From: Nonomuraea dietziae
GTDB lineage: Bacteria > Actinomycetota > Actinomycetes > Streptosporangiales > Streptosporangiaceae
Direction of reading: 5' to 3'
DNA: 64,000 nt
Assembly (NCBI RefSeq): GCF_014195505.1
Contig: NZ_JACIBV010000001.1
Coordinates: forward strand, 7,502,001-7,566,000
Every line of letters starts with the position of its first letter. Positions within the stretch are counted from its first letter, which is position 1. Both the position numbers and the translations under genes were made by a program. The notes under the pieces were generated by a model, which worked only from the letters and a program-made list of their open reading frames with translations, ran no database searches and was not told where the DNA came from. Shown here piece by piece: positions 46,263 to 63,309 of the stretch.

Positions 46263-49200
46263 GTCAGCTCCCTGGCGAGGCGTTCGGCCTCCTCGTCGGA
46301 CATCTGGTCCAGCTCCGCCACCAGCAGGTCCTCGACCGTCCCGGCCAGGCCCTCGACCGTCGGGCTCGCGAACAGCGCTCTGATCGGGACGTCCAGGTCG
46401 ATCGCGGCCCTGATCCTGGCCACCACGCGGACGGCCAGCAGGCTGTGCCCGCCGAGCGCGAAGAAGTCGTCGTGCGCCCCCACCTTCTCCAGGTCGAGGA
46501 CCTCGGCGAAGACGGCCGCCACCAGGTGCTCGGCGTCGCCGTCCGGCGCCCTGTACTCCGCCCTCGCCGCCTCGGGCTCGGGCAGCGCGGCCCTGTCCAC
46601 CTTGCCGTTGGGGGTCAGCGGAAGCGCGTCGAGGCGCACCCACCGCGTGGGCACCAGGTACGGCGGCAGCGTCGCGGCCGCGTGGTCGCGCAACTCGCCG
46701 AGGTCGGCCTCGCCCACGACGTAGCCGACCAGCGTCTCGCCCTTCGCCGTCACCGCGGCGGCGCCGACGTCGGGGTGGGTCATGAGCGTGGCCTCGACCT
46801 CGCCGGGCTCGACCCGCTGACCCCTGATCTTCAGCTGGTCGTCGAGGCGGCCGAGGAACTCCAGCTGCCCGTCGGGCCGCCATCTGACCCTGTCGCCCGT
46901 CCGGTAGACCCGCTCGTGGGCGCTGTCCTGTGGGGCGTCGGTCTCGGTAAGGAGGATCCTGTCGCCGGTGAAGGGCACGAAGCGGTCCGCGGTGAGGTCG
47001 GGGCGGCCGAGATAGCCGCGGGCCACGCCCTGCCCTCCGACGCACAGCTCGCCAGGAGCGCCGGACGGGACCAGGCGCCCTACGGCGTCGACCACGTAGG
47101 CGGTGGTGGCGGCGATCGGGCGGCCGATGGGCGGCACGCCCCTCGAGGCGTCGAGCGTGGTGGCCGTGGCGATGACGGTGGTCTCCGTCGGGCCGTAGGT
47201 GTTGACCAGCCTGACGCTCAGGCCGAAGCGCTCGTGCCAGCGGGCCACCGCGGAGGCGTGCGCCTGCTCGCCGCCGAGGATCACCAGGCGCAGCGTCGAG
47301 GGCCAGGCGACCGCGTCGATCTGGTCGACGAGGTGGTGCCAGTAGGCCGTGGGCAGGTCGAGGACCGTCACGCCCTCGAGGTGGTCGGGCAGGCTGAGCC
47401 CGCCGTCGGGCAGGACGACGACGTGGGCGCCGCTGGACAGCGCGGGATAGATCTCCTCGGCGTGGGTGTCGAAGCCGAGCGAGGCGAACTGCACCACCCT
47501 GTCGCCCGGACGCAGGCCGTACTCCTCCGCCATCCAGTCGACGCGGGCGGCCAGGTTGCGGTGGTCGACGACGACGCCCTTGGGCTCGCCCGTCGAGCCA
47601 GAGGTGTACAGCACGTAGGCGATCTCGGCGGGCGGCACGGGGGTGAGGGGCGCGGTGGGCTCGCAGGTGTGGGCCAGCGGGGTGCCCTGCGGCAGCCGGT
47701 CGGCCAGGTCGGGCGAGGTGAGCACGAGCGTCGCGCCGCTGTCGGTCAGCAGGTGCGCCAGGCGGGCGGTCGGGTGGGCGGGGTCGAGCGGCAGGTAGGC
47801 GCCGCCCGCTCGCCACACCGCGAGCAGCGCGGCGACGGCGTCGACGCCCCGGCCGAGGCAGACGCCCACCAGGTCGCCCCGCCGTACCCCCTTGCTCTGG
47901 AGGAGCCCGGCCAGCTCGGTGACCCGCAGGTCGAACGAGGCGTAGTCGAGATCGCCCACCGCGGGCAGCCCCGCGTGCCCGAGGACGGCCCGCGCCACCC
48001 TGTCGGGCACGGTCGGCGCGTCGAAGGATCCCGGGGGTGGGACCGGTTCCTCCCGCGTGACCGGTGAGGGCCGGTCGGAGAGGGAAGCGGGAGGAACCGG
48101 CCGGCTCGGTGCGGGACCCCGCCCCCACGCGCGCAGCAGGGCGAGGTCGTCGGGGGACAGCAGCTGGGGCGGCAGACCTGGGTCCTGGCACAGGAGGCGT
48201 TCCAGCCTGCGGGCCAGCGCCTGCACCGTGTCCGCGTCGAACAGGGCGGCGTCGTAGGACAGGACGAGCAGCAGCTCGTCGGGGTCCTGCCAGGCCTCCA
48301 GCATGAGGTCGAACTTGACCTGCGCGAACCCGTGGGGGAACGGCGCGGCCTCCAGCCCGGCGAAGGCGGCGGGCGTGCGGCCCGCGTCCTGGGTGTGCAG
48401 GATGGCCATCGTCTCGAACGAGGGCGCGCGCTCCAGCGGCGCTCCCTGGTGGGCGAAGGCGTCCACGACCGTGGCGCGGGTCCGCTCCACGAGCTCGCCG
48501 AAGGTGGGCGAGCCTGTCAGGTCGCCGCGGATCACGAGCGTGTCGGCGAAGTAGCCGACCACGCCCTCCAGGAGGGCGTCGTCGCGGCCCGAGGTGACGG
48601 TGGCCACGCAGACGTCCGTCAGGCCGCTCTGCGCGGCGAGCACGGCCTGGTAGGCGGCCATCAGCGTCATGAACATCGTCACGCCCGGCGTCCTGCTGAC
48701 CGCTTCGACCGGCAGCGTGAACGTGTGGAAGGCGGCCTGGCGCGGCGCGCCGGTGCGCGGCCTGTCGGTGGGCAGGTTCAGCGGCGGCTGACCCGCGAGC
48801 CGCTCCCTCCAGTAGTCGTCCATGGAGTCCTGGCCGAGCTGCCAGCGGGCGACGTCGCCGAACTGCAGGGGCGGCTCGGGCGGCCGCTCGCCGGAGTAGA
48901 GGAGGGCCAGCTCGTCGATCAGGATGTTGAGCGACCAGCCGTCGCCGAGGATGTGGTGCAGCACGACGCACAGCACGTGGTCCTCGGGACCGACGGGGAC
49001 GAGCGTCACCCTGAACGGCGGGGCGCAGGCCAGGTCGAAGGGGGCGTTGACGCGCTCGGCCACCAGCCGCTCGGGCTCGCCCGCGACGATCTCGAAGGGC
49101 ACCGGGCCAGGGGGCTCGACGACGATCACGGGCACGCCGTCCACCTCGGGGAAGCGCGTGCGCAGGCTCTCGTGCCTGGCGGCCAGCGCGTCCACGGCCA

Positions 49201-52200
49201 GGCGCAGCGCCGCCACGTCGAGCGGGCCGCGCAGGCGGCGCACGATCCACATGTTGTAGGCGGCGTCGCCGGGGTCGAGCCGGTGCAGGAACCACAGCCG
49301 CTCCTGGGAGCGGGAGAGCGGGACGGCCGCGCCCTGGGGACGCCGGCGAGGCCGGTCATCGGCGGGGCCGGGGGAGTCCTGCGCGGCGTCGAGAAGGGCG
49401 GCCATCGCCTCGACGGTCGGGCGCAGGAACAGCTCGCGGACAGGCACCCGTCCTGGCAGGCGGGAGGTGACGACGGTGGCCAGCAGGGAGTGCCCGCCGA
49501 GCGCGAAGAAGTCGTCCTCCGCGCCGACGTCCGCGACGCCGAGCACGTCGGCGAAGACCCGCGCGACCAGGAGTTCGTGCGGCGTCCTCGGCGGAGTGGA
49601 GGCCGGGACCGCCGACGCCTCGGGCGAGGGGAGGGCCTTGCGGTCCACCTTGCCGTTGGGCGTGAGGGGCAGGGCGTCGAGCTCCACCACCACCGAGGGC
49701 ACCATGTAGCCGGGCAGCTGGGCGGCGGCGTGCTCCCGAAGCCCCTCCGCCTCGCCGACGACGTAGGCCACGAGCAGGTCGTCGCGGACGGCGGTGACGG
49801 CCTGCCGCACGCCGGGCCGCGACTCCAGTACCGTCTCGATCTCGCCCAGCTCGACCCGGTGGCCGCGCAGCTTCACCTGGTTGTCGGTCCTGCCGAGGAA
49901 CTCCAGCGTGCCGTCGGGCAGCCAGCGGACCAGGTCACCCGTGCGGTAGACGCGCTCGCCCGCGTGCTCGGTGAACCGCTCGGCGGTCAGGTCGGGCCTG
50001 CCCAGGTAGCCGGTGGCCAGGCCCGCGCCGCCGATCAGCAGCTCGCCTGGGACGCCGAGGGGCGCGTCGACGTGGACGGTCGTGTTGGCGATCGGGCGGC
50101 CGATCGTCACCCTGGCGGGATCGGAGGGCACCTCCCACGCGGTGGACCAGATGGTCGTCTCGGTCGGGCCGTACATGTTGACGAGCCTGCCGACGCGCGA
50201 GCGCAGCTCGGCGGCCAGCTTCGGCGGCAGCGGCTCGCCGCCCGCCAGCGCGGTCACCGGGGGCAGCTCCCCTGTGAGCAGCACCCGCCAGCCCGAGGGC
50301 GTGGCCTGGACGTGCGTGACGCCCGTCGTCGTGATCAGCCGCGACAGCGCGGCGCCGTCGCGGGCGGTGTCGGCGTCGGCGATGACCACCGTGCCCCCCG
50401 TGACGAGCGGCAGGTACAGCTCCAGCGCGGAGATGTCGAAGGAGAGCGAGGTGAGCGCCAGCCAGACGTCGGAGGGCGCGGACCCCACGAGCGAACGCAT
50501 CGCGAGCAGGAAGTTCGTCAGCGCCCTGTGCGGGACGACCACGCCCTTGGGGCGGCCCGTGGAGCCCGAGGTGTAGAGCACGTAGGCGGTGTCGCCGGGG
50601 AGCGGCCTGACGACGTGCGGCGCTCCCGAGGGGAGCTCGTCGGTGAGGACGAGCGCCGCACCCGAGTCCTCCAGCACGTAGGAGACGCGGGCCTGCGGGT
50701 AGTCGGGGTCCACCGGCAGGTAGGCGGCGCCCGCCATGGCCACGCCGAGCAGCGCGACCAGCATGTCAGGACCGCGCGAGAGCCGTACCGCCACCAGGGA
50801 GCCCGTGCCGACGCCCCGCTCGGCGAGCGCGCCCGCCAGGACCGCCGCCCTCTCTGTCAGCTCGCGGTAGGTCAGCGTGGTGTCGCCGCAGACCACCGCG
50901 ACCGCGTCAGGACGGGCGTCAGCGCGCTCCAGCACCATGTCGACGAGGGTGAGGGGCGGCAGCTCCGCGGCTGTGTCGTTCCACGAGGCCAGCAGGGCGC
51001 GCTCGGAGGCAGGGGTCAGCTCCAGCTCGGCGACCGGCGACGACGGATCGGCGACGATCGACGAGACCAGGACGGCGAAGCGCTCCATCATGCGCTCGGC
51101 GGTCGCGCGCTCGAACAGCTCCTCGCTGTAGATGGCCACTCCGAGCAGGCCGCCGTCGTCCTCGGCGTACAGGTCGAGCGACAGGTCGAAGCGCGCGGGA
51201 TGCCAGCCCAGCGGGAACGGCTCGGCCTCCAGACCCGGCAGCGGATCGGCGATCTCGCCGTGCGTGTGGAGCGCGAACATGGTCTGGAACAGCGGGGTCC
51301 TGCTGAGGTCGCGCTGGAGGCCGAGCGCGCTGACCAGCCGCTCGAACGGCACCTCCTGGTGCGCCAGCGCCTGCAGCACGGTCTTCCTCGTCCGGCGGAG
51401 CAGCTCGGCGAAGCTCGGCTCGCCCGACAGGTCGCACCTCAGCACCAGCATCGTCGACAGGTAGCCGACCACCCGCTCCAGCTCGGTGCTCGTCCGCCCC
51501 GCCGAGGGCGTGCCCACGCAGAAGTCGTCCTGTCCGCTGTGCCGCGCCAGCAGCACCTGGTAGGCGGCCAGCAGCACCATGTACGGCGTGCACCGCGCGC
51601 TCCTGGCCAGCTCGGCCACCCCGGCGACAAGCTCGGGAGCCAGCCTGAACAGCACCTCGCCGCCCGCCGTGCCGCGCTGCGGAGGGCGCGGCCTGTCGGT
51701 TGCCAGCTCCAGCACCGGCGCCCCCGCCAGCCGCTCGGCCCACCACTCCTCCTCGGCCGCGAAGTCACGAGGGGCGGGGTTGAACGGGGGAGGGGCGGCG
51801 GGCAGCGGCCTGCCCGCGTAGCAGGCGGCGACCTCCTCGCGCAGCACGTTGAACGACCAGCCGTCGCCGTTGATGTGGTGCAGCACCACGCACAGGACGT
51901 GCTCGCGCGGCCCGAGCGGGATGACGCTCACCCTGAAGGGAGGTCGCCCTGCCAGGTCGAAGGGGGCGTTGGTGCGCTCGGACACCAGCTTGTCCGGATC
52001 GCCCTCGACCACCTCGAAGGCGATGCGGCCTGGAGGCTCGACGACCGCCACGGGGCGCCCGTCCACTTCGGGAAAGCGGGTGCGCAGCGCGTCGTGCCTG
52101 GCGGCGACGGCGGTGAAGGCCGCCTCCAGCCTGGTGAGGTCGAGCTCTCCGCGCAGCCTGTAGGCGTAGGCGGTGTTGTACGAGGGGTCGTCAGGATCGA

Positions 52201-52246
52201 GTCGATGGAGGAACCACAGGCGCTCCTGGGCGGACGAAAGCGTCAC
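46259..52246 (-). CDS. Bimodular nonribosomal peptide synthetase, C-A-PCP-C-A-PCP
   Basis: 1995 aa from GTG 52246 (GGGGGAAGGG upstream). A TTG at 52318 would add 24 residues, but those use TTA, AGA and other codons rare here and cover a promoter-like site. Order: C1 (HHINGDG near residue 123), A1, PCP1 (DDFFALGGHSLL), C2 (HHILGDG), A2, PCP2 (DDFFALGGHSLL); no thioesterase. Reading the ten A-domain pocket positions by hand gives D-I-L-Q-L-G-M-I-W-K for A1, very close to the known glycine code. A2 gives D-T-E-D-I-G-T-V-I-K, which I cannot assign; acidic residues at pocket positions 3 and 4 hint at a basic side chain. It is the first gene of the leftward arm. Confidence 0.9.
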   Translation of the reverse strand: MTLSSAQERLWFLHRLDPDDPSYNTAYAYRLRGELDLTRLEAAFTAVAARHDALRTRFPEVDGRPVAVVEPPGRIAFEVVEGDPDKLVSERTNAPFDLAGRPPFRVSVIPLGPREHVLCVVLHHINGDGWSFNVLREEVAACYAGRPLPAAPPPFNPAPRDFAAEEEWWAERLAGAPVLELATDRPRPPQRGTAGGEVLFRLAPELVAGVAELARSARCTPYMVLLAAYQVLLARHSGQDDFCVGTPSAGRTSTELERVVGYLSTMLVLRCDLSGEPSFAELLRRTRKTVLQALAHQEVPFERLVSALGLQRDLSRTPLFQTMFALHTHGEIADPLPGLEAEPFPLGWHPARFDLSLDLYAEDDGGLLGVAIYSEELFERATAERMMERFAVLVSSIVADPSSPVAELELTPASERALLASWNDTAAELPPLTLVDMVLERADARPDAVAVVCGDTTLTYRELTERAAVLAGALAERGVGTGSLVAVRLSRGPDMLVALLGVAMAGAAYLPVDPDYPQARVSYVLEDSGAALVLTDELPSGAPHVVRPLPGDTAYVLYTSGSTGRPKGVVVPHRALTNFLLAMRSLVGSAPSDVWLALTSLSFDISALELYLPLVTGGTVVIADADTARDGAALSRLITTTGVTHVQATPSGWRVLLTGELPPVTALAGGEPLPPKLAAELRSRVGRLVNMYGPTETTIWSTAWEVPSDPARVTIGRPIANTTVHVDAPLGVPGELLIGGAGLATGYLGRPDLTAERFTEHAGERVYRTGDLVRWLPDGTLEFLGRTDNQVKLRGHRVELGEIETVLESRPGVRQAVTAVRDDLLVAYVVGEAEGLREHAAAQLPGYMVPSVVVELDALPLTPNGKVDRKALPSPEASAVPASTPPRTPHELLVARVFADVLGVADVGAEDDFFALGGHSLLATVVTSRLPGRVPVRELFLRPTVEAMAALLDAAQDSPGPADDRPRRRPQGAAVPLSRSQERLWFLHRLDPGDAAYNMWIVRRLRGPLDVAALRLAVDALAARHESLRTRFPEVDGVPVIVVEPPGPVPFEIVAGEPERLVAERVNAPFDLACAPPFRVTLVPVGPEDHVLCVVLHHILGDGWSLNILIDELALLYSGERPPEPPLQFGDVARWQLGQDSMDDYWRERLAGQPPLNLPTDRPRTGAPRQAAFHTFTLPVEAVSRTPGVTMFMTLMAAYQAVLAAQSGLTDVCVATVTSGRDDALLEGVVGYFADTLVIRGDLTGSPTFGELVERTRATVVDAFAHQGAPLERAPSFETMAILHTQDAGRTPAAFAGLEAAPFPHGFAQVKFDLMLEAWQDPDELLLVLSYDAALFDADTVQALARRLERLLCQDPGLPPQLLSPDDLALLRAWGRGPAPSRPVPPASLSDRPSPVTREEPVPPPGSFDAPTVPDRVARAVLGHAGLPAVGDLDYASFDLRVTELAGLLQSKGVRRGDLVGVCLGRGVDAVAALLAVWRAGGAYLPLDPAHPTARLAHLLTDSGATLVLTSPDLADRLPQGTPLAHTCEPTAPLTPVPPAEIAYVLYTSGSTGEPKGVVVDHRNLAARVDWMAEEYGLRPGDRVVQFASLGFDTHAEEIYPALSSGAHVVVLPDGGLSLPDHLEGVTVLDLPTAYWHHLVDQIDAVAWPSTLRLVILGGEQAHASAVARWHERFGLSVRLVNTYGPTETTVIATATTLDASRGVPPIGRPIAATTAYVVDAVGRLVPSGAPGELCVGGQGVARGYLGRPDLTADRFVPFTGDRILLTETDAPQDSAHERVYRTGDRVRWRPDGQLEFLGRLDDQLKIRGQRVEPGEVEATLMTHPDVGAAAVTAKGETLVGYVVGEADLGELRDHAAATLPPYLVPTRWVRLDALPLTPNGKVDRAALPEPEAARAEYRAPDGDAEHLVAAVFAEVLDLEKVGAHDDFFALGGHSLLAVRVVARIRAAIDLDVPIRALFASPTVEGLAGTVEDLLVAELDQMSDEEAERLARELT

Positions 52247-52265
52247 TAGCCCTTCCCCCGAATCT

Positions 52266-52278
52266 GGAAAGGTTCTTA
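52266..52278. promoter_or_regulatory. ROK-like site upstream of the NRPS
   Basis: GGAAAGGTTCTTA, 20 bp before GTG 52246. It matches the site at 52395-52407 at 12 of 13 bases, and the equivalent window matches the reverse complement of the palindrome at 41096 at 10 of 13. Confidence 0.45.
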
Positions 52279-52394
52279 ACTGTTCGGGAGTCAACCACGG
52301 ATCTTGACCTGCCCGCAAGGCCCGATAAACACGGGGTTTGCGCTCTTGTCACCTCTCCGTGACCGTGTAAGACTGTCGGCCGTCCGGTGGGTAA

Positions 52395-52407
52395 GGAAAG
52401 TTTCTTA
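52395..52407. promoter_or_regulatory. ROK-like site upstream of the rightward NRPS arm
   Basis: The sequence AGGAAAGTTTCTT (52394-52406) matches the reverse complement of the ROK2/importer palindrome (41096-41108) at 12 of 13 bases. A TATTTT (52412-52417) beside it is a plausible -10 element for the gene starting at 52430, so a bound protein would block that promoter. Confidence 0.5.
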
Positions 52408-52429
52408 TCAGTATTTTCGGGGGTCTGTC

Positions 52430-53812
52430 GTGAGCGTGACCCTTCCTGATCTGCTGCGGGAGCGGGCCAAGGCCGACCCCGAGCGGGTGGCGATGACCGT
52501 CCACGGTGCCGGGTCGCTGACCTTCGGCGAGTGGGAACGCCGCTCCGCAGGCGTCGCGGCGGGGCTCGGCGTCGAGCCCGGCGACCGGGTGGGCCTGGTG
52601 TTCGGCAACGGCGACTGGCTGGAGTACGCGGTCGCCTTCCTCGGCGTCGTCAGGGCGGGGGCCGTGGCCGTCCCTCTGTCGGACCTGCTGGCCGGCGCCG
52701 ACGTGGAGGCGATGCTGGCGCACTGCGGCGCGTCCAGGACGCTTCGCCCAGGGGCGTTACCCTTCGCGGAGGGCTCGGCACCCGACCCTCCGCGCCCGCG
52801 CGACCTCGCCCAGATCCTCTACACCTCCGGCACCACGGGCAGGCCCAAGGGCGTCGCGGCCAGCCATGCCAACCTGGGCTACGGCTGCGGCGGCAGGCGC
52901 AGGCCCTTCACGCACAGCGCGCACCTGGCGCACGCCTTCCCGATCGGCACGAACGCGGGCCAGTGGATGCTCGTCAACGCTCTGGACGCCCATCCGCAGG
53001 TCGTGACGTTACCCAGATTCACCCCCGGCAGGTTCGCCGGGCTGATCGAGCACTACAGGGCGGGCACGGTCTTCCTCGTGCCGGCCATGGCCATCGAGAT
53101 GCTCTCCGCCCGCGTCCACCACAAGCACGACCTGTCGAGCGTGCTGCTGCTCGGCTCGGCCGCCGCGCCGCTGCCCTCGCAGGTCGCCGTCGACCTCGGC
53201 ACCGCCTTCGGCAACGCCACGATCGCCAACTACTACACCTCGACAGAGGCCGCGCCCGCCCAGACCGTGATGCTCTTCGACCCCGACAGGCCCGCGAGCG
53301 TCGGGCGGCCCGCCTCGGGCGGCGCCGTCAAGATCGCGACGGCCAAGGGCGACCCGCTGCCGCCCCGCGTGACCGGCGAGGTGTGGATGCGCTCGCCTGC
53401 CGTCACCCGCACCTACTACGGCGACGCGCAGGCCAGCGGCGAGGTGTTCAGAGGCGGCTGGGTCCGGATGGGCGACCTCGGCTACCTCGACGACGACGGC
53501 TACCTCTACCTGGTCGACAGGGAGAGCGACGTGATCAAGTCGGGCGCCTACAAGGTGTCGACGATCCACGTGGAGGACGTCGTCCACCAGCATCCGGACG
53601 TGGTCGAGGCGGCCGCGTACGGCGTGCCGCACCCCACGCTCGGCAAGGCCGTCGAGGTGGCGGTGGTCGGCCCCGTGGCCCACGAGGAGCTGCGGATCTT
53701 CCTGAAGGGGCGGCTGGCCCCGCACGAGCTGCCCGCCAGGCTCGTCACCCTCGACGCCCTGCCGCGCAACCAAGGCGGCAAGGTCGACAAGCGGAGGTTG
53801 AGGCATGACTGA
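52430..53812 (+). CDS. Free-standing acyl/aminoacyl adenylate-forming enzyme
   Basis: 460 aa from GTG 52430. ANL-superfamily motifs: ILYTSGTTGRPKGVA (P-loop), YYTSTEAAPAQ, GDLGYLDDDGYLYLVDR and NQGGKVDKRRL with the C-terminal catalytic Lys. It is shorter than a typical acyl-CoA ligase. It overlaps the C-PCP gene by 8 bp and probably loads that carrier, which lacks an A domain. It could instead activate an aryl or fatty acid. Substrate cannot be predicted. Confidence 0.85.
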   Translation: MSVTLPDLLRERAKADPERVAMTVHGAGSLTFGEWERRSAGVAAGLGVEPGDRVGLVFGNGDWLEYAVAFLGVVRAGAVAVPLSDLLAGADVEAMLAHCGASRTLRPGALPFAEGSAPDPPRPRDLAQILYTSGTTGRPKGVAASHANLGYGCGGRRRPFTHSAHLAHAFPIGTNAGQWMLVNALDAHPQVVTLPRFTPGRFAGLIEHYRAGTVFLVPAMAIEMLSARVHHKHDLSSVLLLGSAAAPLPSQVAVDLGTAFGNATIANYYTSTEAAPAQTVMLFDPDRPASVGRPASGGAVKIATAKGDPLPPRVTGEVWMRSPAVTRTYYGDAQASGEVFRGGWVRMGDLGYLDDDGYLYLVDRESDVIKSGAYKVSTIHVEDVVHQHPDVVEAAAYGVPHPTLGKAVEVAVVGPVAHEELRIFLKGRLAPHELPARLVTLDALPRNQGGKVDKRRLRHD

Positions 53813-55169
53813 GGTGTCACCCGCCCAGCACGGGATCTGGATCAACGAGCGGGCGGGCGCCTGGTCGGCGTACCACATGCCGCTGGTGATCAGGTTCGGG
53901 GCGCCCGTCGACGAGGGGGCGCTGGCCAAGGCGGTCGCCGCACTGGTCGAACGGCATGCGCTGCTGGGCGCGGCCTTCGAGGAGCGCGACGGCCTGCCGT
54001 CGCTGGTGCCCGCCGCCGAACCGCCCTACCTCGCGCGTGAGGAGGTGAAGGGCCCCTTCGACCTGGCCAAGGGACCGCTCGTCAGGTTCGCGCTGCAGGG
54101 CGACGAGCTGAGAGTCGAGGCGCACCACGCGGTCTTCGACGGTCAGTCCAAGGAGGTGCTCGTCGCCGACCTGCTGGCGCTCTACAGGGGCGAGGTCCTG
54201 CCCCCGCTACCCCCTCTCGCGCCGAGCGAAGCGCCCGCTGAGGAGGCTCGCGCCTCCTGGGCCTCCAGATGGCGCGCGCCCGAGGAGGTGGTGGTGCCAG
54301 GGGGAGTGCTGCGCTCGCGGCGCGCGAGCCCGGGGCGCGTGCTGGAGTTCTCGCTCGACGTGCCGGAGGCCGAGGGGCTGACCAGGTTCGAGGTGGTGCT
54401 CGCCGCGGTGCACGCCGTCCTCGCCTCGTACGGCAACGCCGCCCCCGTCACGGCGATCGACCTGTCCACCCGCGCCCCCGGCCAGGAGGGCCACATCGGG
54501 CCCTTCGTCACCGAGCTGCCCGTCTTCTCCGCCCCCGAGCACGGGACCCCCTTCGGGCGGTTCGCCCTGGCGCTGCGGGCCGAACTGCGCGAGGTCTACC
54601 GGCACCGGCAGGTCCCCCTCGCCAGAGCGATCCCCGGGCTGAGGCCGCACGCCGCGCTCGCACCCGTGTCGGTCAGCTACCGGCGCGGAGGGTACGACGA
54701 TCGCGTGGAGTGGCTGGCCTTCAACCAGGCCGTGCGGGGCGCCCTGCAGCTCCAGCTCCTCGACAGGCCCTCCGGGCTCGTCGCCAGCCTGCGCCACGAC
54801 CCCGACGAGCTGCCCGATCCCGAGCGGGTCGTGGCCGACCTGCGCTCCTGGCTGTCAGGAGACCTCTCCCGCCCGCTGAGCACGACGCAGGCCCCTCAGC
54901 CCGCCCCCGCGCCCGTGGCCGCCGACTCGGGGCAGGAACGGCGGGTCGAGGGCGATCCGCTCCTCGCCGGCATCACCGCGATCTGGGAGGAGGTGCTCCA
55001 GATGTCGCCGATCGAGCCGTACGACGACATCTTCGACCTGGGCGGGCACTCCCTCACGATCACGCAGATCATCGCCCGCATGCGCAAGCGCCTGGACGTC
55101 GAGGTCGAGCTGGACGACTTCTTCGACAACCCGACCATCGCGGGCGTCATCGGAGTGATCAGGCAGTGA
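53805..55169 (+). CDS. NRPS condensation-PCP didomain protein
   Basis: 454 aa. The condensation domain has HHAVFDG (His107, His108, Asp112, Gly113). A proline/alanine linker near residues 365-385 leads to a carrier domain with DDIFDLGGHSL, Ser416 being the phosphopantetheine site. No adenylation domain; the neighbouring ligase is the likely loader in trans. Its stop overlaps the E1-alpha start (GTGA), so the carrier and the dehydrogenase complex are co-translated. Confidence 0.87.
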   Translation: MTEVSPAQHGIWINERAGAWSAYHMPLVIRFGAPVDEGALAKAVAALVERHALLGAAFEERDGLPSLVPAAEPPYLAREEVKGPFDLAKGPLVRFALQGDELRVEAHHAVFDGQSKEVLVADLLALYRGEVLPPLPPLAPSEAPAEEARASWASRWRAPEEVVVPGGVLRSRRASPGRVLEFSLDVPEAEGLTRFEVVLAAVHAVLASYGNAAPVTAIDLSTRAPGQEGHIGPFVTELPVFSAPEHGTPFGRFALALRAELREVYRHRQVPLARAIPGLRPHAALAPVSVSYRRGGYDDRVEWLAFNQAVRGALQLQLLDRPSGLVASLRHDPDELPDPERVVADLRSWLSGDLSRPLSTTQAPQPAPAPVAADSGQERRVEGDPLLAGITAIWEEVLQMSPIEPYDDIFDLGGHSLTITQIIARMRKRLDVEVELDDFFDNPTIAGVIGVIRQ

Positions 55170-56026
55170 TCGACGCCGACCTCTCCCGCATGCTCGTGAT
55201 CCGCGCCTTCGAGCGCACCCTCCTCGACCTGTACGGCAGGGGCCTGGTCAACGGCACCACCCACACCTGCCTCGGGCAGGAGTACGTCCCCGTCGCCATG
55301 GAGGGGCTGCTCGACCCGGCCGACCACGTCTTCAGCAACCACCGGGGACACGGCCACTACCTGGCCCGCTTCGACGACCCCGAGGGCCTGCTGGCCGAGA
55401 TCATGGGCCGCGAGGGCGCGGTGTGCGCAGGGGTGGGCGGCAGCCAGCACATCCGCCGCGACCGCTACCTGTCCACCGGCGTCCAGGGGGAGAGTCTGCC
55501 GGTGGCGGCGGGCGTCGCGCTCCATCTCAAGCGCGCCGAGCCCGGCCGCCTGGCCTGCGCCTACATCGGTGACGGCACGTTCGGCGAGGGCGCGGTGTAC
55601 GAGGCGCTGAACCTGGCCGCGCTCTGGGCGCTGCCCCTGCTGGTGGTGGTCGAGAACAACGGCATCGCCCAGTCCACGCCCACCGACAAGCACCTGGCGG
55701 GCACGATCGCGGGGCGCGCCGCGGCCTTCGGCCTCCCGCACGAGCTGGTCGAGGGCGCCGACGTGGACGACATCAGGGCCAGGCTCGCGCCGCTCGTCTC
55801 CGGTGTGCGGGCGGGCAGGCCCGCCGTGGTGGAGTTCGTCACCCACAGGCTCGGTCCGCACAGCAAGGGCGACGACACCAGGCCCGCGCACGCCGTCGGC
55901 GTCGACTGGCGGGACAAGTACGCCTCCCCGCGGCTCGACCGGCTCGAAGCGGCCGCCGTGTCGAGGATCGAGGCGGTCGCCGCCGACGTGATCGCCCGTC
56001 CGCTGTCACGGTGGGAGGCGCGATGA
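55166..56026 (+). CDS. 2-oxoacid dehydrogenase E1 component, alpha subunit
   Basis: 286 aa from GTG 55166. Thiamine-diphosphate motif GDGTFGEGAVYEALN ending in VVENN; HRGHGHYLA and GVGGSQH are typical of pyruvate/acetoin-type E1-alpha. With the beta subunit it decarboxylates a 2-oxoacid and passes the acyl group to the E2 lipoyl arm. Being inside an NRPS operon it probably makes a special acyl unit for the peptide rather than serving central metabolism. Confidence 0.88.
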   Translation: MIDADLSRMLVIRAFERTLLDLYGRGLVNGTTHTCLGQEYVPVAMEGLLDPADHVFSNHRGHGHYLARFDDPEGLLAEIMGREGAVCAGVGGSQHIRRDRYLSTGVQGESLPVAAGVALHLKRAEPGRLACAYIGDGTFGEGAVYEALNLAALWALPLLVVVENNGIAQSTPTDKHLAGTIAGRAAAFGLPHELVEGADVDDIRARLAPLVSGVRAGRPAVVEFVTHRLGPHSKGDDTRPAHAVGVDWRDKYASPRLDRLEAAAVSRIEAVAADVIARPLSRWEAR

Positions 56027-56988
56027 GGGTCGCGGAGAACCTCAACGCGGCGCTCCACGAGCTGATGGCGGCCGAGCGGAACCTCTACCTGCTCGGCGAG
56101 GACGTGGCCGACCCCTACGGCGGCGCCTTCAAGATCACCCGAGGGCTGTCCACCCGCTTCCCCGGCAGAGTGATGTCCACGCCGATCAGCGAGAGCGCCA
56201 TCACCGGCGTCGCCGCGGGCCTGGCGCTGTCGGGCGACGCGGCGATCGTCGAGATCATGTTCGGCGACTTCGCCACGCTCGCCTTCGACCAGCTCCTGAA
56301 CTTCGCCGCCAAGTCCGTCTCCATGTACGGCTCCCGCGTCCCCATGCGCATGGTCGTGCGCTGCCCCGTCGGCGGCGGCAGGGGCTACGGCCCTACGCAC
56401 AGCCAGAGCCTGCAGAAGCACTTCGTCGGCATCCCCGGCCTGGCGCTGTACGAGATGTCGCCCTTCCACGACAACCTCGCGGTCCTCACCGAGATGCTGG
56501 CGCGCGAGGAGCCCTGCGTCCTGTTCGAGGACAAGGTCCTCTACACCAGGCCCATGCACGCCGTGCCCGAGCCGTTCTCCCTCGCGGTCGAGAACGGCGT
56601 GGCGAGGGCCTTCCTCGACGAGCGTCCCGACTGCGTGGTCGTCGCGCCAGGGGGCAGCGCTCCCATGGTGCTGGCGGCGATGCGCTCGCTGCTGCTCGAG
56701 GAGGAGATCGTCTGCACGCTGGTGGTGCCCTCCCGCCTGTACCCGTTCGACGTGGAGCTCCCCGACGCGCGGCGCGTCTTCGTCGTGGAGGAGAGCACCG
56801 CGGGCGGGACCTGGGGCGCCGAGGTCGCCCACCAGATCCACCAGCGGCACTGGGGACGGCTGGCAGGCCCCGTCACCCTCGTCCACTCCGCCGACTCCGT
56901 CATCCCCACCGCCGCCCACCTGGAGGAGTCGGTGCTGGTCTCGGAGCGGACGGTCCATCGCGTGATCATGGAGACGCTCCGTGGCTGA
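56023..56988 (+). CDS. 2-oxoacid dehydrogenase E1 component, beta subunit
   Basis: 321 aa from ATG 56023 (GGGAGG upstream), overlapping E1-alpha by 4 bp. Transketolase-like pyrimidine domain (LLGEDVADPYGGAFK, PISESAITGVAAG) and C-terminal domain (VVVAPGGSAPMVLAA). Completes the alpha2beta2 decarboxylase. Confidence 0.9.
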   Translation: MRVAENLNAALHELMAAERNLYLLGEDVADPYGGAFKITRGLSTRFPGRVMSTPISESAITGVAAGLALSGDAAIVEIMFGDFATLAFDQLLNFAAKSVSMYGSRVPMRMVVRCPVGGGRGYGPTHSQSLQKHFVGIPGLALYEMSPFHDNLAVLTEMLAREEPCVLFEDKVLYTRPMHAVPEPFSLAVENGVARAFLDERPDCVVVAPGGSAPMVLAAMRSLLLEEEIVCTLVVPSRLYPFDVELPDARRVFVVEESTAGGTWGAEVAHQIHQRHWGRLAGPVTLVHSADSVIPTAAHLEESVLVSERTVHRVIMETLRG

Positions 56989-58036
56989 GCTGCGCGTGCC
57001 GAAGCTGAACACCAACGACAGCGAGTACCTGCTGGTGGAGTGGCTGGTCCAGGACGGGGACTCGGTCCACGAGGACGACCTGGTCGCCCTGGTCGAGACC
57101 TCCAAGGCGGCGGAGGAGCTGCCCGCCGACGCCACGGGCGTGCTGCGCCACCGGGTGGCCGCGGGCGCCTGGTGCCGTCCCGACCAGGTGATCGCCACGA
57201 TCGGCGGAGATGCGGCGGTCGCGCGCCCCGAGCCTGCCTCGCCGCCCGCCGCAGCCGGGCGGCCCGAGCCCTCGGCCGCGCGGGACGGCCTGCCTCTGGT
57301 CACCGCCCCCGCCCAGGCGTTCGCCGACGAGCACGGCGTCACCGGCGAGCAGCTCAGGGAGCTCGGGCTCAAGGTCGTCAGGAAGGCCGACCTCGAACGG
57401 CTCCTCGGCCACGTGCGCGACCTGCCGAAGGCGCAGCGGGCCGTCGCCAGGGCCGTGGAGCTGTCCCACAGCACCATCCCCGCCGCCTACCTGGCCGTCC
57501 GCATGGACCTGGCGGGGGCGATCGAGCACGCCAAGGCCGAGACCAGGACCGTCAGACGCCCTATCGGGCTGGCGGAGATCTTCGTCCAGGCCGTGGCGGG
57601 GCTGCACGAGCGCTTCCCGCTCTTCTTCGCCACCCTCGAGGGCGACCGGATCCGCCTGTCCAGGACCGCCGACATCGGCGTCACGCTCGACCTCGGCGAG
57701 GGCCTCTACGTGCCCGTGCTGCACGACGCGGGCGGCCGTACCACCAAGGAGCTGGCCAGCGCACTGATGCGTCACCGCCTGGCCGCCACCACCGGCGACT
57801 TCAGGCCCTCCGACCTCAGCGGCGCCAACTTCGTCGTCACCCTGCACACCGAGGGGGGCGTGGTCATGGCGATCCCGTTCGTCTTCCCCGGCACCGCCTG
57901 CGCGCTGGCCGTCACCGCCCCGGGGCAGGACGGCGGCGCCGACATCGGCCTGGCCTACGACCACCGGCTGATCAACGGCCGGGAGGCCGCACTCTTCATG
58001 CACGCACTCAAGGCCGCCGTCGAAGGGCTGAGCTGA
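56981..58036 (+). CDS. 2-oxoacid dehydrogenase E2, lipoyl acyltransferase
   Basis: 351 aa from GTG 56981, overlapping E1-beta by 8 bp. The lipoyl domain covers residues 1-78 with Lys42 in ETSKAAE (the usual motif is ETDKA). A short subunit-binding-like segment lies near 105-135, and the acyltransferase domain ends in YDHRLINGREAALF, where the usual DHRxxDG Asp is Asn. It moves the acyl group from lipoate to CoA, or possibly to a carrier protein. No E3 gene is present; the housekeeping E3 may serve. Confidence 0.87.
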   Translation: MAELRVPKLNTNDSEYLLVEWLVQDGDSVHEDDLVALVETSKAAEELPADATGVLRHRVAAGAWCRPDQVIATIGGDAAVARPEPASPPAAAGRPEPSAARDGLPLVTAPAQAFADEHGVTGEQLRELGLKVVRKADLERLLGHVRDLPKAQRAVARAVELSHSTIPAAYLAVRMDLAGAIEHAKAETRTVRRPIGLAEIFVQAVAGLHERFPLFFATLEGDRIRLSRTADIGVTLDLGEGLYVPVLHDAGGRTTKELASALMRHRLAATTGDFRPSDLSGANFVVTLHTEGGVVMAIPFVFPGTACALAVTAPGQDGGADIGLAYDHRLINGREAALFMHALKAAVEGLS

Positions 58037-61000
58037 TGTCCGCCGTGGATCTGTCCGGAGCCAAGAGGGAGCTGCTGCGACGCAGGCTGCAAGGCGCGAA
58101 GGCGGCCGAGAGCATCCCCCGCCGCCCCGAGGGCAGTCAGCCTCCCCTGGCCCCCGCCCAGGAGCCGCTGTGGTTCATGGAGCACCTCACGCCAGGCACC
58201 GCCACCTACACCCTCACCACCGCGGTACGGCTGCGCGGCCCGCTCGACGAGGAGCGCCTGCGCGCAGCGCTCGACGAGCTGCCGAGAAGGCACGAGAGCC
58301 TGCGGCACCGCTTTCCCACCAGCGAGGACGGCCTGCCCGCCGTCCACGTGGCCGAGGAGAGCGAGGCGCCGCTCGCGCTCGCCACGGCGGCCGACGACGA
58401 GGAGGCGCTGGCCCTGATCGACGCGGCCGCCGCGGTGCCGCTCGACCTGGCGGAGGGACCGCTGCTCAGGGCGCTCGCGGTGTCCATCGGGGGCGCCGAG
58501 CACGTGCTCGCGCTGCTGGTGCACCACATCGTGGCCGACGGGCAGTCGGCGCAGCTGCTCATGCGGGACCTCCTGGCGCTCTACAGGGGCGAGAGCCGGG
58601 AGGCGCCGACCGTCAGGTACGGCGACGTCGCGCTGTGGCAGAGCGAGCGCTCCTTCGAGCGCGAGCTGGCCTACTGGCGCGGACGGCTCGACGGGCTGCC
58701 GCGCGTCGAGCTGCCCCTCGACAGGCCGAGGCCCGCCGCGCAGTGCCTCGAAGGGGCCACCCACGTGCACGAGCTCGACCCCGAGCTGGTCGAGCGCGTG
58801 ACCGTTCTCGGCAGGAGTCACGGCGCGACGCCGTTCATGACCCTGCTGGCCGCCTTCCACGTGCTGCTGGCCAGGCTCTCGGCCCAGGACGACGTGGCCG
58901 TGGGCACCCCCGTGGCAGGCAGGACCCGCCCCGAGCTGGACGACGTGGTCGGCATGTTCGTCAACACGCTCGTGCTGCGCGCCGACCTGGAGGACGACCC
59001 GAGCTTCGCCGACCTGCTCGGCAGGACGAGAGAGCTGGTCGTCGACGCCCTCGACCACCAGGAGCTGCCCTTCGCCAAGCTGGTCGAGGCGCTCGGCGTG
59101 CCGCGCGACCCGAGCAGGCAGCCGCTGGTCGACGCGCTGTTCTCGCTGCACGACCTGGCGGCGGGCGAGGACGACTTCCCGCTGCGCCCCGGCTCGGCCC
59201 GCCACGACCTCGAGCTCTACGTCGTCCCCAGCGGCGAGGGGCTGGCCTGCGCGTTCACCTACAAGACCACGCTGTTCTCCGCCCCCACGATCGCCAGGAC
59301 GGCACGCCACTTCGAGGCGCTGCTCAGGGCGGCCGTCACCGACCCCTCCACGCCGGTGAGCCGCCTCTCCCTCGGCGACGTCTCCGAGATCGAGGCGTGG
59401 AACGCGACGGCGGCCGACTTCCCAGGCCTGACCCTGCACGCCCTGGTCGAGGAGCAGGTGGCGCGGACCCCCGACGCGGTGGCCGTCACCTTCGAGGGCC
59501 AGTCGCTGACCTACAGGCAGCTCGACGAGCGCGCCAACCAGATCGCGCACAGGCTCGCGGGGCTCGGCGCGGGCGGGCTGGTCGCCATCTGCGCCGAGCG
59601 CTCGCTCGAACTCGTCGCGGGCCTGCTCGGCATCCTCAAGGCGGGCGCCGCCTACGTGCCGCTCGACCCGTCGTACCCGCAGGACAGGCTGACGTTCATG
59701 CTGGCCGACGCCGCCGCGCCCGTCGTGCTCACCCAGAGCGCGCTGATCCCGCTGCTGGCCTCGGGCGGCGCGACCATCCTGCCGCTCGACAACCCCCAGG
59801 TCTGGGACGGCCTGCCCACCGCGCCACCCGACGTCGCCCAGGGCGAGGCGGCGTACATGATCTACACCTCGGGCTCGACGGGCAAGCCGAAGGGCGTGCC
59901 CAACGGCCACCGCGGCATCGTCAACCGTCTCGACTGGATGCAGAAGCGCTACCGGCTCACCGCCGACGACGTGGTGCTGCAGAAGACCCCCGCGGGCTTC
60001 GACGTCTCGGTGTGGGAGTTCTTCTGGCCGCTGATCTCCGGCGCCCGTCTGGTCCTGGCCGCGCCCGACGGCCACCGCGACCCCGCCTACCTGCGTGACC
60101 TGATCAACGCCGAGCGCGTCACCACGCTGCACTTCGTGCCGTCCATGCTGGCGATGTTCCTGGCCGAGGAGGACGTGGACACCTGCGCCTCGCTGCGCAC
60201 GATCATCTGCAGCGGCGAGGAGCTGCCCGTCGACCTGGCCGTCCGCTGCCTGCGGACGCTGCCGGCCGAGCTGCACAACCTGTACGGCCCGACAGAGGCG
60301 GCCATCGACGTCTCGTCATGGCAGTGCACCCTCGAACGGCTCGAGGGGCGGGCCACCGTGCCCATCGGCTCGCCCATCCAGAACATCACCCTGCACGTCC
60401 TGGACAGGCACGGCGCGCAGGTCCCCGTCGGCGTGCCGGGCGAGCTGCACATCGGCGGCGTCGGCGTCGCGCTCGGCTACCACGACCGCCCCGCGCTGAC
60501 CGCCGAGAGGTTCTCCGGCGGGCGCTACCGCACCGGCGACGCCGCCCGCTGGCTGCCCGACGGCACCATCGAGTTCCTCGGCCGCCTCGACGACCAGGTC
60601 AAGCTGCGCGGCCTGCGAATCGAGCTCGGCGAGATCGAGACGGCGCTGCGCGAGAAGGCGGGGGCCACCGAGGCCGTCGTCGTCGTGCGCGCCGACCAGC
60701 TGGTCGCCTACCTGGTGGGAGGGCCGTCCGAACCCGCCCAGGTCAGGGCCGCGATCAGGGGATTCCTGCCGGAGTACATGCTGCCCTCGCTGTTCGTCCG
60801 GATGGAGGCGCTGCCCCTCACCCCGAACGGCAAGCTCGACCGCAAGGCGCTGCCCGAGCCCGTCCTGTCGGCCGACGCGGTCTACGCCCCTCCCTCGACG
60901 GAGGCCGAGAGGGCCGTCGCCGAGGTCTGGGCCGAGGTGCTCGGCGCTCCACGAGTGGGCATCGACGACGACTTCTTCGACCTCGGAGGCCACTCGCTGC

Positions 61001-63309
61001 TGGCCATCCAGGTCGTGGCGAAGCTGCGCAAGGCGGGGATCGGCCCCGTCGGCCTGGTCGACGTGTTCACCTACAGGACGGTGCGGGAGCTGGCCGCCTT
61101 CGCCGCCTCCGCCGAGCAGGGCGCGAGGCCGTTGCTCCAGCGGCTGACCCCGCCGAGAAGCGCGACGGTCAGCTACGTCTGCGTGCCGTACGGGTCGGGC
61201 AGCGCCATCGTCTACCAGCCGCTGGCCGACGCCCTCCCCGCCGACCAGGCGCTCTACGCGCTGGCCATCCCCGGCCACGACATCGGCCTGGACGAGGAGC
61301 CGATGGACTTCGACGAGCTGGCGGCCAGGACGACCGAGGAGATCCTGCGCATCGAGGGCCCCCTGGTGATCTACGGGCACTGCGGGGTCGGCGCGGCGCT
61401 CGCCGTCGAGCTGGCCAGAAGGGTCGAGGAGGCGGGGCGTGAGGTCGAGGCGCTCTACATCGGGGCGATCTTCCCCTTCGCCAGGCCGCGGGGCTGGCTG
61501 CGGTTCGGACTGATGGACCGGCTGCGCTCCAGCCAGACCGACATCAACAGGCTGAAGGCCCGCGGCGTCGACCTGGAGGAGCTCGAACCCGGCGTCGCCG
61601 ACCGCATCATCGCGACCATGCGGCACGACTCCAAGGCCGCGGAGAAGTACTTCACCTCGCTCTTCCACGCCGACGACAGGCCCAGGCTGCGCGCCCCGAT
61701 CATCTCGGTGATCGGCGAGCGCGACCCCGCCACCGACTACTACGAGGAGCGCTACACCGAGTGGGGCTTCCTCAGCGACACCACCGCGCTGGTCGTCCTG
61801 GACGAGGGCGGCCACTACTTCCTGCGCTACAGGGCCGACGAGCTGGCCGCTGTGCTGCGCACCCACCGGCGCCTCGAGGCGGGTGACCGTACGGGGAGCT
61901 GGTGGGTGCACGCCGTCTCCACCGCGGCGGACGCGGCCGCGGCGCCCTCGCGCGACGAGGTCGCGCCCAGCATGCGGCGCTTCCTCACCATCGCCTCGGG
62001 CCAGCAGCTGTCGATGATCGGGTCGGCGCTCACCGGATGGGCGCTGCCGATCACGATCCTGGTCGACTCGGGCTCGGTCACGCAGTTCTCCATCCTGGCC
62101 GTGCTCAACCTGGCAGGGCTGCTCATCTCACCGCTGGCGGGCGCGATCGTCGACAGGGGTGACAGACGCAGGGTGCTGGTCGTCGCCGACCTCTGCGCGG
62201 CGGGCATCCAGGCGGTGCTCGCAGGGCTGATCTTCTTCGGCGACCTCCAGCTCTGGCAGATCTACACCCTGATCGTCGCCCTCTCCGTCGCCACCAGCTT
62301 CCAGCGCCTGGCCTACACCTCGGCCGTGCCGCAGCTGGTGCCCAAGCGCTACCTCGGACACGCCGTCGGCGTCACCCAGATGACCAACGGCGTCGCCCAG
62401 CTGATCGTGCCGCTCATCGCGGCGGGGCTGCTGGCCTGGATCGGGCTCGGCGGCATCGTGGTCATCGACGTGATCAGCTACGCCTTCGCCCTCGCCGTGG
62501 TCCTGCTCGTCCGCTTCCCCGACACACTGCCGTGGCGGCCGCGCGAGCCGCTGGCCACCGAGATCCGCCAGGGCTTCGCCTACACCTGGCACTCGGGCGG
62601 CCTGCGGGCGATGCTCGGCTGGTTCGCCGTGCTCAACATCTTCCTGTCGCCACTCCTGCTGCTGGTCTCGCCGCTGGTGCTGTCCTTCGCCACCCTGCGT
62701 GACGTCAGCGTGGTCTCGGTGGTGACAGGGCTCGGGGCGCTGCTCGGCGGGCTGACCATGGCGCTGTGGGGCGGCCCCGCCAGGCGCAGGTTCAGAGGGG
62801 TGCTGCTGGCCACCGTGGCGATCGCGGCGGGCAGCGTGCTCACCGGGCTCGCGCCCTCGCTGGTGTTGATCGGCGCGGGGGCGTTCGCGATCACGTACTT
62901 CCTGACCCTCATGAACGGCATCTACTCGCTGATCGTGCAGATCAAGGTGCCCTACCGCTACCACGGCAGGGTCTTCGCGCTGAACACCCTCGTCGCGTGG
63001 TCGACGCTGCCGATCGGGATGGGACTGGTCGCGCCGCTCGGCGCCGCGCTGTTCGACCCGCTGATGGCCGAGGGCGGCGCGCTCGCCTCCACGGTGGGCG
63101 CGGTGATCGGCGTCGGACCCGGGCGGGGGATCGCCCTGCTGTACCTGGTCTGCGCGGTCGGCATGCTGGCGGTGGTCGCGGGGGCGCTGCGGGTGGGGCG
63201 GCTGGCCCGCTTCGACACCGACGTGCCCGACGCGCTGCCGGACGACCAGGTGGGCGTGGAGACGATCACGGCGAGAACGGCGGAGCGAGCCGCTACGTCA
63301 GGCGTTTGA
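58036..63309 (+). CDS. NRPS C-A-PCP-TE fused to an MFS exporter
   Basis: 1757 aa. C domain with HHIVADG (His163/His164); A domain with pocket code D-V-W-H-I-S-L-I-D-K, close to the known serine code (Asp656, Trp660 at its start); PCP with Ser987 in LGGHSLL. The thioesterase at about 1030-1280 has nucleophile motif GHCGVG (Cys1116, not Ser), Asp1230 and His1260. From about residue 1313 to the end is a complete MFS transporter (about 12 helices, SGQQLSMIGSALTGWALP). The one-base start overlap with E2 (TGATG) couples it to the operon. No frameshift or stop breaks the TE-MFS junction, so the fusion is real in this sequence. It likely finishes, releases and exports the peptide. Confidence 0.92.
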   Translation: MSAVDLSGAKRELLRRRLQGAKAAESIPRRPEGSQPPLAPAQEPLWFMEHLTPGTATYTLTTAVRLRGPLDEERLRAALDELPRRHESLRHRFPTSEDGLPAVHVAEESEAPLALATAADDEEALALIDAAAAVPLDLAEGPLLRALAVSIGGAEHVLALLVHHIVADGQSAQLLMRDLLALYRGESREAPTVRYGDVALWQSERSFERELAYWRGRLDGLPRVELPLDRPRPAAQCLEGATHVHELDPELVERVTVLGRSHGATPFMTLLAAFHVLLARLSAQDDVAVGTPVAGRTRPELDDVVGMFVNTLVLRADLEDDPSFADLLGRTRELVVDALDHQELPFAKLVEALGVPRDPSRQPLVDALFSLHDLAAGEDDFPLRPGSARHDLELYVVPSGEGLACAFTYKTTLFSAPTIARTARHFEALLRAAVTDPSTPVSRLSLGDVSEIEAWNATAADFPGLTLHALVEEQVARTPDAVAVTFEGQSLTYRQLDERANQIAHRLAGLGAGGLVAICAERSLELVAGLLGILKAGAAYVPLDPSYPQDRLTFMLADAAAPVVLTQSALIPLLASGGATILPLDNPQVWDGLPTAPPDVAQGEAAYMIYTSGSTGKPKGVPNGHRGIVNRLDWMQKRYRLTADDVVLQKTPAGFDVSVWEFFWPLISGARLVLAAPDGHRDPAYLRDLINAERVTTLHFVPSMLAMFLAEEDVDTCASLRTIICSGEELPVDLAVRCLRTLPAELHNLYGPTEAAIDVSSWQCTLERLEGRATVPIGSPIQNITLHVLDRHGAQVPVGVPGELHIGGVGVALGYHDRPALTAERFSGGRYRTGDAARWLPDGTIEFLGRLDDQVKLRGLRIELGEIETALREKAGATEAVVVVRADQLVAYLVGGPSEPAQVRAAIRGFLPEYMLPSLFVRMEALPLTPNGKLDRKALPEPVLSADAVYAPPSTEAERAVAEVWAEVLGAPRVGIDDDFFDLGGHSLLAIQVVAKLRKAGIGPVGLVDVFTYRTVRELAAFAASAEQGARPLLQRLTPPRSATVSYVCVPYGSGSAIVYQPLADALPADQALYALAIPGHDIGLDEEPMDFDELAARTTEEILRIEGPLVIYGHCGVGAALAVELARRVEEAGREVEALYIGAIFPFARPRGWLRFGLMDRLRSSQTDINRLKARGVDLEELEPGVADRIIATMRHDSKAAEKYFTSLFHADDRPRLRAPIISVIGERDPATDYYEERYTEWGFLSDTTALVVLDEGGHYFLRYRADELAAVLRTHRRLEAGDRTGSWWVHAVSTAADAAAAPSRDEVAPSMRRFLTIASGQQLSMIGSALTGWALPITILVDSGSVTQFSILAVLNLAGLLISPLAGAIVDRGDRRRVLVVADLCAAGIQAVLAGLIFFGDLQLWQIYTLIVALSVATSFQRLAYTSAVPQLVPKRYLGHAVGVTQMTNGVAQLIVPLIAAGLLAWIGLGGIVVIDVISYAFALAVVLLVRFPDTLPWRPREPLATEIRQGFAYTWHSGGLRAMLGWFAVLNIFLSPLLLLVSPLVLSFATLRDVSVVSVVTGLGALLGGLTMALWGGPARRRFRGVLLATVAIAAGSVLTGLAPSLVLIGAGAFAITYFLTLMNGIYSLIVQIKVPYRYHGRVFALNTLVAWSTLPIGMGLVAPLGAALFDPLMAEGGALASTVGAVIGVGPGRGIALLYLVCAVGMLAVVAGALRVGRLARFDTDVPDALPDDQVGVETITARTAERAATSGV

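Follow-up and report, generated by a model that had tools for sequence, protein, structure and literature searches.

In trees of thioesterase (TE) sequences, the release TE of a non-ribosomal peptide synthetase (NRPS) encoded in a 64,000-nucleotide stretch of the Nonomuraea dietziae genome (the window) belongs with ObiF1 and SulM, and stands apart from the Ser type I and Ser type II TEs. The domains of this NRPS, its catalytic triad, its serine code and its place in the ObiF1/SulM clade are established at the level of sequence. The best single guess, rated somewhat short of an even chance, is that an acyl-peptidyl-serine is moved to Cys1116 and that the seryl hydroxyl then closes a β-lactone; a serine β-lactone product is plausible, though unproven.

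The NRPS starts at ATG 58036, which overlaps the stop of the preceding gene, and combines a condensation (C, residues 37–446), an adenylation (A, 472–816), a carrier (T, 960–1022), a TE (1048–1275) and an MFS (1323–1656) domain, as delimited by Pfam. The condensation motif HHIVADG and the carrier motif LGGHSL are both intact. The features of the gene are as follows.

58036 to 63309, plus strand: NRPS C-A-T-TE-MFS, 1757 aa, single frame (Pfam)
59449 to 60483, plus strand: adenylation domain, serine code DVWHISLID (Pfam; code by alignment)
61177 to 61860, plus strand: Cys thioesterase domain, residues 1048–1275 (Pfam PF00975, E 1.1e-19; best PDB relative ObiF1)
61375 to 61392, plus strand: nucleophile elbow GHCGVG, Cys1116 codon at 61381–61383 (motif; alignment)
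61723 to 61725, plus strand: Asp1230, triad position II (aligned with the Asp of ObiF1 and SulM)
61813 to 61815, plus strand: His1260, triad (motif; column of the ObiF1 His)
62002 to 63003, plus strand: C-terminal MFS exporter domain, in frame with the NRPS (Pfam MFS_1, MFS_3)

Positions 61363 to 61815 correspond to residues 1110–1260 (numbered from ATG 58036), and the triad named in the original prediction, Cys1116 in GHCGVG with Asp1230 and His1260, is present residue for residue. Asp1230 and His1260 share alignment columns with the Asp and His of ObiF1. Asp1230 lies at the late position (II), as in ObiF1, SulM and type II TEs, and Ala1144 occupies the usual type I Asp position of NRPS TEs. 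The traits of an ordinary type I NRPS TE (Ser nucleophile, position I Asp) are therefore absent, Cys1116 and Ala1144 being found instead, as are those of a type II editing TE (stand-alone, Ser), because this TE sits between the T and MFS domains and uses Cys. RifR and BorB, which are type II TEs, resemble it in position II Asp and overall fold, but are stand-alone members of the Ser family and form a separate clade.

ObiF1, which makes the β-lactone of obafluorin, has Cys1146, Asp1254 and His1284, with Gly1173 at the old Asp place, where larger residues reduce activity (passages of PMC6668435). It resembles the NRPS TE in having Cys after His, position II Asp, a small residue in place of the type I Asp, and a last residue that carries a β-hydroxyl. 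ObiF1 differs in that it is a five-domain NRPS without an MFS domain, that its elbow is GxCxG without an insertion, and that its substrate is β-hydroxy homophenylalanine rather than the Ser predicted here; a β-lactone has been demonstrated for ObiF1 only. SulM, which makes the β-lactam of sulfazecin, shares Cys, position II Asp and the clade, but acts on sulfamated diaminopropionate rather than Ser, and the Gln-Cys-Asn motif of SulM-type β-lactam TEs is replaced by His-Cys-Gly in the NRPS TE. ObiF1 Asp1254 and SulM Asp2926 are catalytic (passages of PMC6668435 and PMC11298585), and, according to passages of the SulM paper, position II Asp occurs among NRPS TEs in ObiF1 and SulM only (PMC11298585). 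The lid Arg is Arg1190 in ObiF1 and Arg2858 in SulM. Arg1164 of the NRPS aligns with an Arg of SulM; ObiF1 is gapped there, although the two residues pair up when read by eye without gaps.

Sequence searches of the PDB with phmmer (15 distinct sequences at E 0.01) place ObiF1 first (E 3.8e-33), followed by BorB (3e-20) and RifR (3e-12), with SulM at 7e-10. Foldseek concurs on a low-confidence AlphaFold model built from three sequences (mean pLDDT 59), with ObiF1 at 2.2e-14, SulM at 3.2e-10 and BorB at 4.1e-10.

In a 94-row tree of 91 Cys rows and three type II rows (the RifR row carries Ala at the nucleophile), all Cys TEs split from the type II rows (support 100/100), a single clade unites the 82 TE-MFS rows (96/87), and ObiF1 pairs weakly with a TE that lacks the MFS fusion (L078, 93/59). 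A 59-row tree drew 34 rows from the 91 Cys TEs, kept all three type II rows and added 22 of 34 PF00975 sequences picked by hand (17 GHS type II-like, 3 GWSFG and 2 GFCIG). In this tree, the position II Cys TEs, including ObiF1 and SulM, lie on one side of a branch supported at 95/83 (95% of 200 bootstrap trees) and are sister to the Ser type II TEs; ObiF1, L078 and the TE-MFS rows group at 98/95, and SulM groups with four others at 97/80. Grouping with ordinary TEs, one outcome that the original prediction had named as counting against it, was not seen. The exact sister of ObiF1 is weakly resolved (L078, 91/43), and the exact placements of SulM and of several single rows are unsure, since these are on long branches. 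In the tree of the SulM paper, as given in passages of it, ObiF1 and SulM group with type II enzymes (PMC11298585), and they are sister to these in the tree built here.

Cysteine in a TE is not as such rare. The source genome has seven PF00975 matches at E 1e-5, of which four use Ser and three use Cys (two GFCIG proteins and the NRPS TE). The two GFCIG TEs fall among the GWSFG type I rows of the 59-row tree, which makes more than one origin of Cys probable. The motif scan of the PF00975 set included one probably false motif (L144) and skipped the TE of the window (L127) owing to its longer elbow.

Related TEs were sought in 98 genomes, in many of which scoring was limited to 26 first-look candidates; the resulting total of at least 96 matches at E 1e-26 or better (window included) may be short of some. 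Matches at E 1e-25 or better occur in at least 45 of the 54 genomes of the same genus (G000–G053, the window's included), and one further genome of the same family (G057) has one. By 16S, the source genome is 98.2% identical to Nonomuraea gerenzanensis (Streptosporangiaceae, Streptosporangiales) but 91.0% to the matching Streptomyces record, which rules out a Streptomyces origin, and the same-genus genomes are on this basis taken to be the Nonomuraea group. The 96 matches and two named Streptomyces loci (L021, L022) gave 98 TEs, and the nucleophile is Cys in every one of them (83 by alignment, 15 by motif). An in-frame MFS domain follows the TE in 93 of the 98 (80 of 83 and 13 of 15), the exceptions being L078, L080, L081, L170 and L171. 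Plasmid records add members from Streptomyces clavuligerus and Embleya that also have a Cys TE plus MFS; an N. gerenzanensis record is absent from the matches in that collection, where near relatives of the window were possibly omitted. A scan of genome contigs confirmed only two loci. Judged by alignment and motif, the Cys nucleophile is a trait of the clade, and the exporter fusion is family-wide, whatever the last residue.

Both generalities weaken the original prediction, which had taken the cysteine and the tethered exporter as pointers to a strained ring from which the cell needs protection: because each is family-wide, neither alone indicates such a ring, and cysteine as a sufficient sign of one is rejected. 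The invariant cysteine also bears on simple hydrolysis, by which the product would end in a free serine and the Cys would be a frozen clade trait, an unlikely outcome. It is favored by the invariance of Cys in 98 of 98 TEs regardless of the last residue, by a Ser terminus also being compatible with hydrolysis, and by ObiF1 C1146S, which yields the hydroxy acid only, so that the fold is able to hydrolyse (passages of PMC6668435). However, the retention of Cys across a clade sister to Ser type II TEs would fit a non-hydrolytic use of the thioester, and a Cys-to-Ser variant of BulbE hydrolysed far more than the wild type (passages of PMC11536411).

The elbow of the NRPS TE (GxCxxG) is one residue longer than GxCxG. 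The longer form, GHC[GA]xG, is found in every one of the 57 rows of the subclade that contains the window's TE (100/100) and in none of the other 37 rows of the 94-row set; ObiF1, SulM, RifR and the remaining rows outside the subclade have an elbow one residue shorter, which in ObiF1 and SulM is the five-residue GxCxG. GHCGVG also occurs in 3 of the 15 loci read by motif. The absence of the insertion from ObiF1 and SulM counts against extending the β-lactone reading from them to this TE.

The A codes were read by alignment at what we take to be the code positions within the A domain; a second reading was identical, and the tenth residue (usually Lys) is assumed. The code adjoining the TE, DVWHISLID, predicts serine, as the original prediction had it. 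Published codes include DVWHLSLVDK and DVWHFSLVDK for serine, DLYNLSLIWK and DLYNMSLIWK for cysteine, DILQLGMIWK for glycine and DLTKVGHVGK for aspartate or asparagine (passages of PMC12283262 and PMC3795760); DFTKIGHVGK is termed aspartate-like here by resemblance only. Among the first 83 loci, the last codes are Ser in 22 (including L080 and L081, whose A domain does not adjoin the TE), Cys in 12, aspartate-like DFTKIGHVGK in 19, Gly-like in 7 and other in 23. In the 57-row elbow subclade, the terminal codes are Ser (21), aspartate-like (20), Cys (12) and others (4), the Ser and aspartate-like tallies including Embleya L104 and S. clavuligerus L103, and all glycine-coded rows lie outside this subclade. 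In the alignment, all 20 Ser-coded rows counted and all 12 Cys-coded rows of the subclade have Arg at residue 1164, as do 16 of 19 aspartate-like rows; the glycine-coded rows (7 of 7) have Thr there. A search of the open-licence PMC literature with six A codes, two being required, returned no matching paper.

A glycine residue cannot form a β-lactone. Cys and position II Asp span the whole clade, including the 7 of 83 loci with a glycine-coded terminal module, and so are no proof of side-chain closure; if the glycine code is right, the clade does something other than β-lactone closure at least there. Such relatives, needing another mode of release, lend some weight to a macrolactone or macrolactam, in which a hydroxyl or amine at some other point of the chain would attack the Cys thioester, for example one in the acyl part or in a building block delivered by the E1/E2 proteins of the cluster; a hydroxylated unit could come from the acyl ligase, the carrier protein and E1/E2. 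This outcome is somewhat unlikely. A precedent is BulbE, the TE of bulbiferamide, an indolylamide macrocycle, which shares with the NRPS TE a Cys nucleophile and a position at the end of an NRPS and is able to macrocyclise, a further reason why Cys does not of itself mark a strained ring (passages of PMC11536411). However, BulbE Asp988 is 27 residues past Cys and is taken here, from the published numbering, as position I, unlike Asp1230, and both characterised position II Cys TEs, ObiF1 and SulM, form four-membered rings (passages of the papers cited above); BulbE is outside the trees built here.

The MFS domain matches Pfam MFS_1 (E 1.4e-17) and MFS_3, "Transmembrane secretion effector" (E 9.1e-13), both above the cut-off, and TIGR00900, an H+ antiporter model, at E 5.8e-53, but below the NCBI cut-off. 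MFS_3 is the family to which the enterobactin exporter EntS belongs. A serine module joined to such an exporter is what would be expected if the chain were passed to an outside nucleophile, or oligomerised as EntF does with serine. This is quite unlikely: EntF-type TEs have position I Asp (passages of PMC6668435), and no catechol-synthesis names are found among the nine other cluster genes scanned by Pfam. Searches of the open-licence PMC literature on NRPS/MFS fusions found nothing relevant, and neither the TE-MFS family nor its product was found reported among the papers listed, a point against the β-lactone reading. The product name "non-ribosomal peptide synthetase/MFS transporter" is in use at NCBI, and the fusion as an annotation is therefore probably not new.

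In the operon of overlapping genes that the NRPS ends (52304–63309, plus strand), it is preceded, in order, by genes for an acyl ligase, a C-T protein, E1 alpha, E1 beta and E2 (Pfam); further genes of the cluster are divergent.

42944 to 44797, minus strand: N,N-dimethylformamidase beta-like protein (Pfam DMFA2_C, E 4.4e-74; in 5 of 5 closest clusters)
44794 to 46029, minus strand: stand-alone condensation-like protein (Pfam; 5 of 5)
46026 to 46262, minus strand: small carrier protein, 78 aa (5 of 5)
46259 to 52318, minus strand: two-module NRPS C-A-T-C-A-T, divergent (Pfam; homologues next to the other four clusters)
52304 to 53812, plus strand: AMP-binding acyl ligase (Pfam; 5 of 5)
53805 to 55169, plus strand: C-T didomain protein (Pfam; 5 of 5)
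55166 to 56026, plus strand: E1 alpha-like protein (Pfam; 5 of 5)
56011 to 56988, plus strand: E1 beta-like protein, thiamine diphosphate dehydrogenase (Pfam; 5 of 5)
56981 to 58036, plus strand: E2-like protein with lipoyl motif ETSKA and acyltransferase motif DHRLING (Pfam; 5 of 5)

The two-module NRPS has the A codes DILQLGMIW (glycine) and DTEDIGTVI (no assignment). The ten-gene set is present in all five members of the closest clade, namely the source genome, G006, G014, Streptomyces fragilis and S. abyssomicinicus; as these are three Nonomuraea-group and two Streptomyces genomes, the set spans two orders, a distribution suggestive of transfer between them. No immunity gene is seen among the ten shared genes, and the argument from a tethered exporter to self-protection is weak. 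An APH-like phosphotransferase (63293 on) was rejected as an immunity gene of this cluster, since only G006 of the four other clusters has one adjacent; in G014, S. fragilis and S. abyssomicinicus, scans of one or two flanking genes showed other families. A link to azaserine through S. fragilis was likewise rejected, as AzsO, the NRPS published for azs, has the organisation Cy-A-CP and lacks a TE (passages of PMC10445470). Searches of the open-licence PMC literature on DMFA-like genes in NRPS clusters yielded nothing relevant among the papers listed.

More widely, 17 clusters combine, within the fetched stretch, a TE-MFS NRPS with an acyl ligase at least 49% identical to that of the window. 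Their last codes are Ser in 10, Cys in 6 and aspartate-like in one (L103, S. clavuligerus), the last counting against the β-lactone reading; an E2 homologue adjoins five of the six Cys-coded clusters (L085, L088, L096, L098, L101; none seen at L097), and E1 genes are seen in the closest five only.

In the pathway proposed for a β-lactone, the NRPS would serve a short acyl-peptide assembly line as its release module, with an A domain predicted from its code to load serine. By analogy with ObiF1 and SulM chemistry, the acyl-peptidyl-serine would pass from the carrier to Cys1116, aided by His1260 and Asp1230, and the acyl-cysteine thioester would be captured intramolecularly, most likely by the terminal serine hydroxyl. 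The product would be an N-acyl-peptidyl serine β-lactone, in which the four-membered ring size is putative, and it would presumably be handed over to the fused MFS domain for export. This closure is favored by ObiF1 being the best solved sequence relative (the fold search agrees, on a weak model), by the single clade with ObiF1 and SulM, by position II Asp together with the small Ala1144 where type I TEs have Asp, by the serine code in all five members of the closest clade, and by the Ser or Cys codes of 16 of the 17 acyl-ligase clusters, each of which brings a β nucleophile; such near-restriction fits side-chain closure, without showing it. What stands of the original prediction is thus the kinship with ObiF1 and SulM and the serine code, and what does not is the step from cysteine to a strained ring.

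The actinomycete TE-exporter group with the enlarged elbow is frequent in Nonomuraea and also occurs in Streptomyces and Embleya.

A broader proposal, rather unlikely as it stands, is that this large group releases four-membered rings, with a Ser β-lactone in clusters such as that of the window and a Cys β-thiolactone in the sister clusters. The ObiF1/SulM clade is common in one genus, where it is nearly always fused to an exporter and is paired with several terminal residues. The matched Ser- and Cys-coded clusters, together with the elbow insertion, would provide a direct test of which features of a Cys TE decide among ring closure, macrocyclisation and hydrolysis.

The catalytic Cys1116 of the thioesterase (TE) in the window's NRPS is directly followed by an inserted residue:

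61384-61386, Gly1117, inserted directly after the catalytic Cys.

This one-residue insertion is present in all 57 TEs of the subclade (57/57, including that of the window), and it may affect the oxyanion hole.

Cys TEs placed near that of the sulfazecin beta-lactam synthetase SulM occur in other layouts, one of which is a plasmid-borne gene at locus L107:

7097-10714, (+), A-T-TE with a GHC motif.

Trees place this TE near SulM, and the neighbouring genes encode ATP-grasp, argininosuccinate lyase-like and PLP enzymes; the locus is possibly a small strained-ring or diaminopropionate pathway. An A-T-C-T-TE layout with a Cys TE and without MFS is found in Vibrio (L105, on a plasmid) as well as in genomes from the same genus as the window (L080, L081, L171). 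The TEs of L105, L080 and L081 also lie near SulM in the tree, and the A-domain codes of L080 and L081, read by alignment, specify serine.

The NRPS operon of the window also contains the following set:

55166-58036, E1 alpha/E1 beta/E2 genes.

No E3 gene was found among the scanned genes. A candidate parallel is the glycolyl-loading pair NapB/NapD of naphthyridinomycin.

A phosphotransferase gene is convergent to the NRPS:

63293 to beyond the window end (open frame continues), (-), APH-like.

Among the four other closest clusters, this adjacency is found only in G006, of the Nonomuraea group. Separately, seven Ser-coded NRPSs (L044, L045, L049, L050, L052, L053, L055) extend about 300 aa beyond the C-terminal MFS domain:

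143-1252 of L044, (-), Ser-coded NRPS with the post-MFS extension (domain scan).

The scan, of L044 alone, identified this extension as an APH-family phosphotransferase domain (E 9.2e-32); the other six are similar to it in C-terminal length.

The whole ten-gene cluster (window 42944-63309) occurs both in the Nonomuraea group and in two species of Streptomyces (L021/L120, L022/L121), which suggests that it moved between orders by transfer.
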